A stretch of 64,000 nucleotides of DNA from Fischerella muscicola PCC 7414 (lineage in GTDB: Bacteria; Cyanobacteriota; Cyanobacteriia; Cyanobacteriales; Nostocaceae): NCBI RefSeq assembly GCF_000317205.1, contig NZ_AJLK01000161.1:1-64000 (forward strand). Direction: 5' to 3'. Each line of letters opens with the position of its first letter. Position 1 is the first letter of the stretch. Below, piece by piece: positions 21,270 through 25,529 of the stretch. The translations under genes and the position numbers were made by a program. The notes beneath the pieces were generated by a model. The model had not been told where the DNA came from and searched no databases. It saw nothing but the letters and a program-made list of their open reading frames with translations.

Positions 21270-21599
21270 CTACATAATTTCGCTACTTTCCAACTCATTA
21301 TTTTCTTTATTTTCATTCTTTTCATTAAGTTCAGCTTCTTTAACCCGACGTATAGGGACATTGGCAATTAAGGCACTGGTTCGCTGATTACTTTCTAAAG
21401 AAAACTCTAAACCCTCCGTTTCGATTTCTACATAACGGCAAACAATTTCTAAGATTTCTTGCCGCATTTTTTCTATCATCTGGGGGCTTAAGTCAGCGCG
21501 ATCGTGAGCAATCACTAATTGCAGGCGACGTTTAACTTGATTGCGACTGTTAACGTCAGAATTACGAGTAAATAATCGTTCTAGAAGTTCAATGATCAT
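21270..21599 (-). CDS. minE: Cell division topological specificity factor MinE
   Basis: 109 residues. MinE stimulates MinD ATPase and drives Min oscillation. Start [13 protein letters not shown] is the conserved membrane-binding/anti-MinCD N-terminus; the middle [19 protein letters not shown]-like region ([17 protein letters not shown]) is diagnostic. The longest frame begins at 21650 inside minD, but the ATG at 21597-21599 fits the family. The C-terminal 15 residues ([18 protein letters not shown]) are a low-complexity acidic tail. Last gene of minCDE. Confidence 0.95.
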
Positions 21600-21631
21600 T
21601 GCTGCTAGGTATGGACAGATGGGGAAAAATA

Positions 21632-22438
21632 TCAAATGATTTTTGTCCACAACAATCTTCTAAGACGAGAGAAGATGCTGTCGCTGGGTGAGTCGAGTTC
21701 AAGAAAATCGACCGTTTCACCTTCCAATCTGCGAGCAATGTTATCAAAGGCTGTAGCCGCTAAAGAGGGAGTTTCTGCTAATACTAAAGGTTCGCCGCGA
21801 TTGGTAGAGACTATAACGCGCTCATCATCCGGAATGACCCCAATTAGAGGAATTGCCAGAAGTTCCTGAACATCCTGCACAGACATCATATCATTTGCCC
21901 GTACCATTGCGGGTTTGATCCGATTAATTATTAAATGAATGCGCTTGACACCTTGTGCTTCTAATAACCCGACGACGCGATCGGCGTCTCGGACGGAAGC
22001 AATTTCTGGTGTGGTAACAATTAATGCTTCTTTAGCTGGGGCGATCGCATTTTTAAACCCCATTTCAATACCTGCGGGGCTATCAATAATCACATATTGA
22101 TACTTTTGTGCCAATGCATTCACCAGCAACTTCATCTGATCAGGGGTGACTGCATCTTTAGTACGGTTCTGTGCTGCTGGTAACAAGACCAAATTTGGTT
22201 GGCGCTTGTCTTTTACCAATGCTTGTTCCAGGCGACACTCCCTAGCTAAAACTTCTACCGCCGTGTAAACGATGCGATTTTCTAGTCCTAGCAACAAATC
22301 TAAATTTCTCAAGCCAAAATCCGCATCAACTAATGCTACTTGACGCCCGATTTTTGCTAAAGCCATGCCTAAATTGGCTGTACAAGTGGTTTTACCCACG
22401 CCTCCTTTACCGGAGCTTATCACAATAATGCGAGTCAT
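21632..22438 (-). CDS. minD: Septum site-determining protein MinD
   Basis: 268-residue deviant-Walker ATPase that recruits MinC to the membrane. [20 protein letters not shown] carries the deviant Walker A (KGGVGKTT); [19 protein letters not shown] and IIDSPAGIE follow. The C-terminal amphipathic membrane-targeting helix is recognisable as [10 protein letters not shown]. Start at 22438 rather than the longer frame at 22480, which adds 14 unrelated residues. 49 bp after minC, 32 bp before minE. Confidence 0.97.
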
Positions 22439-22487
22439 GACACAAACGCGCTTGATGATGTTTCTGTAAATATATAACACTAGAGCT

Positions 22488-23564
22488 TTATAGCTCTGGG
22501 TTCATCCTATTAAATTGGGTCTTAGAAAAATCACTAGCCCTACCGATACGAATTCCTTGGGGTGTGACGTATGCCACCTCAGGATAGAACTGCATTGGTA
22601 ATTTTTCTGGCGCTCTAGCAACAGCATCTGCGATCCGCAACTGGGTTGGTTCCATTTGCAAGGCCATAATCAGACACTCACGATTGCCCCCAGCACCAGC
22701 ATGAGCAACTCCTCGGAGACGACCCCAAACGAGAATATCACCATCTGCAACTACGATACCACCTGGATTTACATCTCCTAAAATAATTACGCTACCAGGA
22801 TGGCGAATTTCTACACCAGAACGCACCGTCATTTCTAGATATAGTGCTTCTTTCGAGGGTTTTTTGCTGATTTTAGATTCAGAAGCCAGGATATTTTCTC
22901 GTTGTATTTGTTCAACAGAGTAGCCAGCAGTAGCTGCTGCGATCGCTGTTTGGCGACGACTGGTAGCAACCGATTTCAGTTGCATTTGCACTTCGCTCAA
23001 AGTTTCAGCAAGTTGTTGCAGTTGTCTAGCATCTAAAAGGCGATCGCCTGCTACCAAATGCACAGGAGTATTAGGTGCAGTGAAGCGATCGCTACCATTG
23101 AGTCTTAACTTTAACTGTTGCCAAATTTCATTCCAATTGCGTTCCGAAGCAGACAGTTGCGATTCTGTGGGTAAAATTAATAAAAATCTTCCCTCCTCTG
23201 TTTTCATTTGAACTTGGCTATTTTTATTGACCCCATTTTCCAGTGGAGGTGATTTAGGGGGTTCTTTATCCACAGGGTCAACAGGCAATTCTGCATCCAC
23301 AACCGTATCAGACTCTACACTAGCAACAGCAGAATTTGATTCTGATTCAGTAAGAACAGAATTGGACTTTAAATACAGTAGAACAGAATTGATCTCCGCT
23401 TCTGGAAGTATAGAACTTGACTCCGCATCAACAGCTACAACAGATTTTGTCTCTGTATCAGCAACAGTAAACTTTACCTCTACATCACAAAGGCTGGAGA
23501 TTGATTCTGTATCATCAACAGCAGAATTTGACTTGAGATTGGGGATAGCAGAATCAGAAGTCAT
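22488..23564 (-). CDS. minC: Septum site-determining protein MinC with nonapeptide-repeat N-terminus
   Basis: 358-residue inhibitor of FtsZ assembly. The conserved parts are the N-terminal FtsZ-inhibiting domain (about 115-235) and the C-terminal beta-helix (about 245-345) with HPGSVIILGDVNPGGIVVAD and GRLRGVAHAGAGGNRE. Residues 4-94 are an extra segment of ten 9-residue units with consensus NSxVxxxES (e.g. NSVLTESES, NSAVASVES, DTVVDAELP), one unit with an added residue. Repeats then give way to a Pro-rich linker (DPVDKEPPKSPPLENG). Translation from MTSDSAIPNL is supported by the repeat starting at residue 4. Confidence 0.93.
   Translation of the reverse strand: MTSDSAIPNLKSNSAVDDTESISSLCDVEVKFTVADTETKSVVAVDAESSSILPEAEINSVLLYLKSNSVLTESESNSAVASVESDTVVDAELPVDPVDKEPPKSPPLENGVNKNSQVQMKTEEGRFLLILPTESQLSASERNWNEIWQQLKLRLNGSDRFTAPNTPVHLVAGDRLLDARQLQQLAETLSEVQMQLKSVATSRRQTAIAAATAGYSVEQIQRENILASESKISKKPSKEALYLEMTVRSGVEIRHPGSVIILGDVNPGGIVVADGDILVWGRLRGVAHAGAGGNRECLIMALQMEPTQLRIADAVARAPEKLPMQFYPEVAYVTPQGIRIGRASDFSKTQFNRMNPEL
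23283..23555 (-). repeat. 27-bp-period coding repeat in minC
   Basis: Ten degenerate 27-bp units encode the NSxVxxxES nonapeptides at the MinC N-terminus. DNA units share GCAGAATTTGA / ACAGAATTGGA-type cores on the plus strand. The register breaks once by a single codon (unit KSVVAVDAES). Confidence 0.8.
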
Positions 23565-24113
23565 GCAGCATTAGCCTAAAGAGAGAAACTGAGCAACTAC
23601 CAATATTAAATTATTTGTCTTTGATACTGCCTTCTCGCAAGTTGCAAATTATGAAACTGACCTGAGGCAGAACGAATTCTTTTCTTGGAAAACTCACGTT
23701 AATAATGCATCTTTACCCTGGCTTGGTATAAGAATTTAGCACAAATTATTCCCAAATGTTGGAAGTTATATTGGCAACAAACCATTTGAACAGAATTGCA
23801 GAGGACTAAATTGTTTAGTATAAATTTTTTCTAAAATCTTCAGCATAGCTGTCTTTCTTCAGTCCGCTTCCAACCAAAGCTAGCGAAGTTACCTCTTTTC
23901 AATCAAAAGTATAAATGTACACGATTAACCCTATATGTTGTGTAAATTTATTTAACAAAAACCTCTTGTTTATCCGCTGAAATACGAATTAAGACAAATT
24001 GTGATGGTAATTTTTATTTTATAGGTTGCACTAGCGGTTCTCTTTTTATCCAAATTCCAATAATATTAAGTTCCTCGTTTAGAAGGATTTTTGTCTAACA
24101 AGGATTATAAGTA
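23565..24113. promoter_or_regulatory. Divergent intergenic region between minC and a subtilase
   Basis: 550 bp of AT-rich DNA between divergent genes; it must carry promoters for both. TTCTTTTCTTGG and TGTACACGATTAACCCTATA are present, but no confident -35/-10 pair or known operator is identified. No ORF is supported. Confidence 0.35.
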
Positions 24114-25529
24114 ATGAAATTAGGTTCAACAATCCATTCATGTTTATTATACTTTTCCTGTTTTTCATATTTATCTATAGCCCTTGTCAGCTTTAAAACG
24201 TTGATAGCTCCTGCTCATGCTCAGATCAGTCCTCCTGGTAATGGCTTTGGACAAACTAAAACTCTAGATTTTGATAACCTAATTTCTAAAGCCAACAAAT
24301 ACGGTACTGTCAGAGTCATCATTGGTTTAAAAGCAAATTTTATACCCGAAGGCAGGCTAGCAACTTCTTTGGCTCAGAGTCAAAGAACAGCGATCGCCCA
24401 AAGACAAAATGTCATCTTGAGCAAGCTTTCAACTTACAAACCCGCTGTAATCACCAAGTTTCAGACGATTCCCTACTTTGCTGCCCAGCTCAATGCTCGG
24501 GCTTTGAAGGTTCTTCAATCTGATCCAAACATTATCAGTATTCAAGAGGACATAGCTGTACCAGCGACGCTGATGGAAAGTATTCCTATAACTAGAGCTA
24601 ATAATGCTTGGAGTAGTGGGTTTACGGGTGCAGGGCAAACAGTTGCCATCTTAGATACAGGTGTAGACTCCAGCCATCCTTTTTTAGCAGGCAAGGTAGT
24701 TTCAGAAGCTTGTTATTCCACTACTGATTCAACCTACCAAAGTACAAGTTTATGCCCGAATGGATCGGCTCAACAGGTGGGTACTGGTTCCGCAGTTAAT
24801 TGCACCAGCACCATTGTTGATTGCGATCATGGCACCCATGTGGCTGGGATCGCTGCGGGTAATGGCTCTAGTTTTTCTGGGGTTGCCAAGGACGCTAAGA
24901 TTATTGCTATTCAAATCTTCTCTCGATTTGATTCTGCTGAACAATGCCAGCCGCTTCCATCACCCTGTATCTTGAGTTACGCCAGTGATCAAATACGAGC
25001 TCTAGAACAGGTTTATAACCTCCGTTCCAGTTTCTCAATTGCAGCAGCTAACATGAGTTTGGGAGGGGGTAGCTATACGACTAACTGTGATGCTAGCTAT
25101 GGAAACCTCAAGGCAATCGTCGATAACCTCCGTTCTGTTGGTATAGCTACTGTCATTGCTGCCGGAAATGATGGTAGCATTGACGGTCTAAGTTTCCCTG
25201 CTTGCATCTCGTCAGCAATTAGTGTCGGTTCTACCAAAGACGGTAGTTCTGGCGGTAATGCTGATGAAGTATCGAATTTTTCTAATAGTGCTTCATTTCT
25301 ATCTCTTCTGGCTCCAGGAGAAGCAATCTACTCCTCGGTTCCGGGTGGTAATTACGCTAATTTCTATGGAACTTCAATGGCAGCTCCCCATGTAACAGGA
25401 GCTTGGGCTATTTTTAAGCAGAAGAACCCATCTGCTAGTGTTGCGGACACTCTTGCAAATTTTCAAAACACAGGCATTCCTGTAACTGATCCGAGAAATG
25501 GTATCCAAAAATCGCGTATCCGTCTTTGA
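24114..25529 (+). CDS. Secreted subtilisin-family (S8) serine protease
   Basis: 471 residues. Signal peptide (hydrophobic SCFSYLSIALVSFKTLIA, cleavage likely after AHAQ at 37). An inhibitor-I9-like propeptide occupies about 60-150 (VRVIIGLKANFIPEG ... NIISIQEDIAVP). Catalytic triad: Asp181 in VAILDTGVDSSHP, His239 in DHGTHVAGIAAGN, Ser421 in GTSMAAPHVTGA, with oxyanion Asn352 in AAGNDG. Four or more Cys pairs in the catalytic domain fit an extracellular enzyme. The end RIRL is close to the domain boundary, so no C-terminal extension. Confidence 0.94.
   Translation: MKLGSTIHSCLLYFSCFSYLSIALVSFKTLIAPAHAQISPPGNGFGQTKTLDFDNLISKANKYGTVRVIIGLKANFIPEGRLATSLAQSQRTAIAQRQNVILSKLSTYKPAVITKFQTIPYFAAQLNARALKVLQSDPNIISIQEDIAVPATLMESIPITRANNAWSSGFTGAGQTVAILDTGVDSSHPFLAGKVVSEACYSTTDSTYQSTSLCPNGSAQQVGTGSAVNCTSTIVDCDHGTHVAGIAAGNGSSFSGVAKDAKIIAIQIFSRFDSAEQCQPLPSPCILSYASDQIRALEQVYNLRSSFSIAAANMSLGGGSYTTNCDASYGNLKAIVDNLRSVGIATVIAAGNDGSIDGLSFPACISSAISVGSTKDGSSGGNADEVSNFSNSASFLSLLAPGEAIYSSVPGGNYANFYGTSMAAPHVTGAWAIFKQKNPSASVADTLANFQNTGIPVTDPRNGIQKSRIRL

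Follow-up and report, generated by a model that had tools for sequence, protein, structure and literature searches.

The MinC protein of Fischerella muscicola PCC 7414, encoded in the 64,000-nucleotide stretch of contig NZ_AJLK01000161.1 analyzed here (the window), carries a long N-terminal tail built largely from nine-residue units, and the best conserved part of this tail is not the repeat but a two-unit segment of 17 residues. We consider it reasonably likely that the tail is a disordered, acidic tether that changes its length partly by whole units and presents a putative protein-docking helix. The relatives surveyed for this purpose belong to the family of F. muscicola PCC 7414 (GTDB Nostocaceae; class Cyanobacteriia; order Cyanobacteriales), which we take, from the named loci and from general knowledge, to be the heterocyst-forming clade.

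The minC reading frame (positions 22488-23564, minus strand; 358 amino acids, ATG start) lies upstream of two further genes on the same strand: minD (21632-22480; TIGR01968, 402.1 bits against a cut-off of 212.9), which comes next, and minE (21270-21650; TIGR01215, 89.4 bits, cut-off 49.3). Judged by its sequence, the body of the protein is that of an ordinary MinC: it passes the curated equivalog cut-offs of NF001778 (347.9 bits versus 315) and TIGR01222 (102.6 bits versus 95.25), and its C-terminal domain (residues 244-336; 22557-22835, minus strand) is matched by Pfam MinC_C (110.4 bits, cut-off 33.2). The N-terminal domain (residues about 117-222; 22899-23216, minus strand) lies inside the NF001778 match; its Pfam scores (MinC_N_1, 19.2 bits; MinC_N, 17.2 bits) are below the cut-offs of 27 and 27.3, and a fold search gave a weak match to the MinC protein of T. 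maritima (1hf2; rank 12, E 0.23, prob 0.97). The protein thus shares both its body and its minD/minE neighborhood with the MinC family, but residues 1-112 are not covered by the family models; the body comprises residues 113-349, the best NCBIfam match starts at residue 113, and the first Pfam match begins at residue 141 or later. Cell division in Anabaena is halted by overexpression of MinC, according to work cited in a review (PMC7766704).

A leader abutting the minC ATG (consensus tgtcTTTTGGCTagTgctgc; 23565-23584, minus strand) is conserved through much of the family. By eye, it contains no ordinary Shine-Dalgarno sequence, and a comparison with Rfam returned no match to an RNA family. Two further observations concern the surroundings of minC: a 9-bp array (TCATTATTT, 3.7 copies, 21295-21333) encodes the C-terminal tail of MinE, and the divergent neighbor at 24114-25529 (plus strand) resembles a secreted subtilisin-type serine protease, with all of its NCBIfam matches below cut-off.

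The family-specific tail comprises residues 1-116 (23217-23564, minus strand), is acidic and rich in Ser and Asn, and is predicted to be disordered. The initial annotation had described ten nine-residue units at residues 4-94 (23283-23555, minus strand); the units are degenerate, and the period is real: lag 9 stands out both by BLOSUM score (z 6.6) and by identity (32%, z 6.8), lag 18 follows with z values of 4.0 and 3.3, respectively, and all lags between 2 and 30 other than multiples of nine have z values of at most 2.5. The one-residue slip in register reported there was recovered as well, with the unit KSVVAVDAES having ten residues, and the period recurs in the close relatives checked (L002-L004; z 7.0, 6.1 and 4.3). 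In the DNA, identity at a lag of 27 bp amounts to 53% (z 7.7 versus codon shuffles); Tandem Repeats Finder, even at a score of 30, did not detect the array in this minC, and the array is therefore old and diverged. Units 6 and 7, overlooked as anything special in the initial annotation, correspond to the conserved segment SILPEAEINSVLLYLKS (residues 51-67; 23364-23414, minus strand), of which residues 55-67 are predicted to be helical.

MinC proteins throughout the family share the long tail; the region is not peculiar to this one protein, as had been supposed. MinC was present in 60 of 60 relatives and in 215 of 217 family genomes. The 138 family loci (L001-L110 and L131-L158; L159 and L160, cut by contig ends, were excluded) yielded 127 distinct MinCs and 11 identical copies; one locus set, limited to the best 80 of 233, is weighted towards close relatives, and a set of deep branches was added as a balance. 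Of the named relatives among these best 80 of 233 loci, Fischerella thermalis PCC 7521 (94%; L031) is the closest, and its MinC is identical to that of L003 from another genome of the same genus. The number of residues preceding the LLILP block has a median of 125 (range 66-379) in the 96 of 127 family rows in which a pattern could place the block, versus a median of 36 (range 22-74) in 20 MinCs from 20 other families, drawn from 24 genomes of other families of the order. For the 31 family rows in which the pattern failed, the tail boundary was set at a fixed 245 residues from the end. The two distributions overlap slightly, the shortest family rows having 66 residues. A start of the form M-[TNS]-S-D is found in both the family and the outgroup, and the MinC starts of the two look homologous. 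In a MinC-core tree of 147 rows, the family forms one side of a branch with a support of 100, and a single lengthening of the tail at the family base is therefore the simplest reading; the tail label on this quickly built tree (support below 80 on 66 of its 143 inner branches) is family membership, so that a single change says no more than that the family makes up one clade there. A second protein with such a tail was not found in the F. muscicola PCC 7414 genome at E 10, and no report of a long MinC tail was found among the matches listed in literature searches. One MinC of another family (L116; genome G043) has an unrelated, proline-rich tail repeat of its own, with about four copies of NPPNPLLEGQ.

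When the conserved segment is masked, lag 9 has the top z value of lags 5-15 in 96 of the 127 family tails, where about 12 would be expected if all lags were equal. Its z value reaches at least 3 in 77 tails and stays below 1.5 in 36, among them all seven rows of g30 and six of the eight rows of g76. The commonest unit in the family is N-S-A-L-[SP]-D-V-E-S, positions 1, 2 and 8 of which were restricted by the search pattern. The segment lies in frame with the repeat, and its first half, DSILPDAEL in relatives, resembles this unit; since the segment is retained in 28 of the 36 low-period tails, it does not depend on the repeat. In 715 overlapping pairs of close relatives, gaps of 9 (154) and 18 residues (78) exceed those of 8 (35), 10 (27) and 17 residues (0), and clear 27-bp arrays exist in the tails of L132 (11.3 copies) and L077 (7.1 copies); hence, whole units are indeed gained and lost in the family, alongside small indels. 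The expanding coding minisatellite envisaged in the initial annotation is found in some relatives and not in the present minC. The tails of L132 and L077 share the head-to-tail units of 27-bp coding minisatellites, whereas in the minC studied here such an array is undetectable and one two-unit segment is conserved.

The segment, with the consensus xSI[LI]P[DE]AE[LV]xSV[LI]xYLKSN, is present in 114 of the 127 distinct family MinCs (113 by pattern, L104 by eye), and the count is again 114 when the pattern leaves residue 61 free; in its usual form, the pattern requires V at residue 61 and limits the choice at further sites, so that column counts taken with it lean to conservation and the invariance of V61 is in part a product of the search. 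In alignments whose rows were not selected by the pattern (30 and 49 rows), P54, E57, S60, V61, Y64 and L65 vary little or not at all. The information content of the segment (3.55 bits) compares with 2.4 and 2.1 bits for the remaining tail and 3.6 bits for the N domain; in alignment A3, the tail's most informative 17-residue window (3.56 bits versus 3.62 bits for the MinC_N domain) has residue 52 as its first position, and residues 1-17 form the next-best separate window (3.17 bits). None of the 20 MinCs of other families contains the segment. Of 60 family genomes, 52 had a match to a segment profile at E 0.01 or better; the open frames concerned are 309-534 amino acids long and were minC wherever their location was shown. 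A weak segment could be recognized by eye in three of the eight misses (G021, L152; G023, L029; G200, L155). In the class as a whole, 14 of 291 genomes matched, all of them from the family; the division of these 291 genomes into 17 of the family and 274 others assumes that the 257 misses hold no family genome. Of the weaker non-MinC matches, those in G020 and G004 were inspected and lack the segment, and the PDB holds no relative of it, a single 8-residue match having an E value of 4.4.

The only non-MinC protein that passed the profile class-wide is an antitoxin ORF of G008. At E 1, the non-MinC matches comprised a tail of weaker ones and five small Phd/YefM-type antitoxin ORFs (L172-L176; E 0.005-0.14), of which all three that were scanned exceed the cut-off of Pfam PF02604. 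These ORFs carry a stretch like SVSVIPTAELNSI; we considered them as segment carriers and read the resemblance, which concerns the segment's first half, as a chance likeness.

Selection on the segment argues that the tail is translated from the first ATG. In 14 hand-chosen pairs, which share species with one another, dN of the segment was 0 throughout, with dS above 0 in nine, and dN/dS was between 0.05 and 2.4 for the tail around the segment (where defined) and between 0.03 and 0.20 for the core. In 33 disjoint close pairs, change per residue amounted to 0.066 within the segment, compared with 0.110 in the tail before it and 0.205 in the tail after it. The tail as a whole changed 3.3 times as fast as the core (0.146 versus 0.044), with no tail excess at fourfold sites (0.139 versus 0.172), and the segment taken whole slightly outpaced the MinC core (0.066 versus 0.044). 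Thirty of the 37 segment changes seen at 561 positions fell on residues 51, 53, 56, 59 and 67, and residues 52, 54, 57, 58, 60 and 65 did not change at all.

Structure prediction portrays the tail as a disordered chain with a single helical island. AlphaFold2 models were calculated for the full-length protein (49 rows: this MinC and 48 of the 80 named loci) and for the tail plus N domain (48 rows: this MinC plus 47 taken from the 69 for which such a cut was feasible). The helix at residues 55-67 is the only secondary structure predicted within residues 1-118; in the full-length model, its blocks have pLDDT values of only about 51 and 46, and it recurs in the model limited to the tail and the N domain, with a pLDDT of about 70 for its first ten residues. 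The pLDDT values below 50 at residues 1-51 and 64-114 favor the disordered tether proposed in the initial annotation; its suggestion of an adhesive function finds no support. A fold search with the second AlphaFold2 model gave no match below E 0.001. On a helical wheel, residues 57, 58, 60, 61, 62, 64 and 65 form a conserved face, opposite to which lie the less conserved sites 56, 59, 63 and 66 (92 distinct strings). The segment has a mean net charge of -1.2 and a moderate hydrophobic moment (0.24), and the acidic tail has a net charge that averages -0.15 per residue, with K+R making up 4%, so that a protein-binding helix fits better than a membrane-binding one.

The segment is missing from 13 of the 127 MinCs, all of which keep the tail; this indicates that it is dispensable in five lineages. 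The distribution takes at least five changes on the MinC-core tree, and losses would be the best reading of these, with the count being rough and the tree by itself unable to tell gain from loss. Motif-less rows have MinC distances of 0.53-0.85 against a median of 0.48 and, except for L023, MinD distances of 0.26-0.34 against 0.19 (MinD was available for 125 of the 127 rows). A MinC-specific acceleration after loss of the segment was rejected, because MinD is also faster in four of the five lineages.

Could the tail be a mostly neutral, expandable coding minisatellite that the protein tolerates as filler? The 27-bp arrays in L132 and L077 and the excess of 9- and 18-residue gaps speak for this, as do several pairs in which tail dN/dS is near 1, but multiples of nine make up only 239 of the 866 gaps, with gaps of one residue being the commonest (227) and gaps of three residues frequent (129), and the constrained segment would be left unexplained; we regard this reading as improbable. 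A still lower probability attaches to an amphipathic helix that targets the membrane and helps MinC onto it. The helix is short and rich in V, L, I and Y, as such a reading would have it, yet the segment is net negative in a tail poor in K and R, its hydrophobic moment is only moderate, and E57 and S60 sit on the very face that is conserved.

The alternative that the helix docks on the protein's own N domain or on MinD, and in this way gates FtsZ inhibition or MinC-MinD assembly without any other partner, deserves more weight, and we nevertheless deem it unlikely. Among MinC columns that are near-constant (at least 95% in 105 motif-bearing cores), five deviate in at least three of the five motif-less representatives, the corresponding mean over 126 control sets drawn from long-branch rows with the motif being 1.7, and these five columns include Q136, N165 and T166 of the N domain; the totals of deviations are likewise high, both for MinC (46 versus a control maximum of 45) and for MinD (46 versus a maximum of 32 in 56 sets). 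Some control sets also reach five columns, however, MinD has just one such column (control mean 0.7), and the MinC/MinD distance ratio of the motif-less rows (2.2-3.3) brackets the median of 2.7. Since these rows, apart from L023, also have the larger MinD distances, a general rate effect is an equally good reading. The two AlphaFold2 models do not give a confident arrangement either, with pTM values of 0.32 and 0.49.

The N-terminal peptide of FtsZ offers a parallel. According to PMC6175996, this peptide is non-globular, well conserved in the same clade, and needed for normal division of Anabaena PCC 7120; cyanobacteria have long possessed it, and the clade stands out by how strongly it is conserved there. 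Both the FtsZ peptide and the MinC tail are thus non-globular, clade-conserved N-terminal regions of core division proteins, but they differ in protein and in sequence, and a long MinC tail was seen here only in the family. The same paper reports two-hybrid signals between MinC and FtsZ that are weak, and stronger with an FtsZ lacking the N-terminal peptide; MinC trees are included in that work, and none of the consulted passages that name MinC mentions an extension. A tie between segment loss and the FtsZ N-terminal peptide was considered, as NPFG replaces NPFN/NPFS in three of the five motif-less lineages. This link is unconvincing because the motif-bearing G015 has NPFG as well, and the FtsZ N-terminal peptides of the 29 genomes compared exhibit no clean correspondence with segment loss. 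At the other end of FtsZ, the eight g76 genomes (L200, L202-L208), which are also without the MinC segment, have EIPPFL as their C-terminal peptide, where DIPDFL is usual.

Returning to the tether with a docking helix, we envision the following sequence of steps. The ancestor of the family would already have possessed a long tail with the helix, and the length of the tail would have shifted since then partly by whole nine-residue units, which would account for the period. The helix (about residues 54-67; consensus [IV][LI]P[DE]AE[LV]xSV[LI]xYL[KQ]S) probably docks onto a partner, with E57, I/L58, S60, V61, L62, Y64 and L65 as the putative binding face. Docking may then hold the FtsZ-inhibiting body of MinC at the site of this partner, most likely the septum or the divisome, or release it there. 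We infer the ancestral gain, the binding of a protein by the helix, the assignment of the partner to the divisome or the Min proteins, and the effect of the binding.

A more specific version of this proposal, which we put forward tentatively and with some doubt, is that MinC acquired a recruitment handle at the origin of the heterocyst-formers, that this handle docks to a partner in the multicellular divisome, and that the leash is tuned by 27-bp units. SepF, ZipN, Cdv3 or FtsZ's own conserved N-terminal peptide are conceivable examples of such a partner, named with the same reserve. According to the review PMC7766704, Synechococcus is the only case in which the functional properties of the Min system had been worked out. 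Experiments on the tail should address the helix and not the repeat: a family-specific, constrained segment of 17 residues provides a readily testable handle on MinC, and the five lineages without it serve as natural controls. If MinC did acquire such a recruitment handle, the placement of Min would have been rewired in filaments of joined cells.
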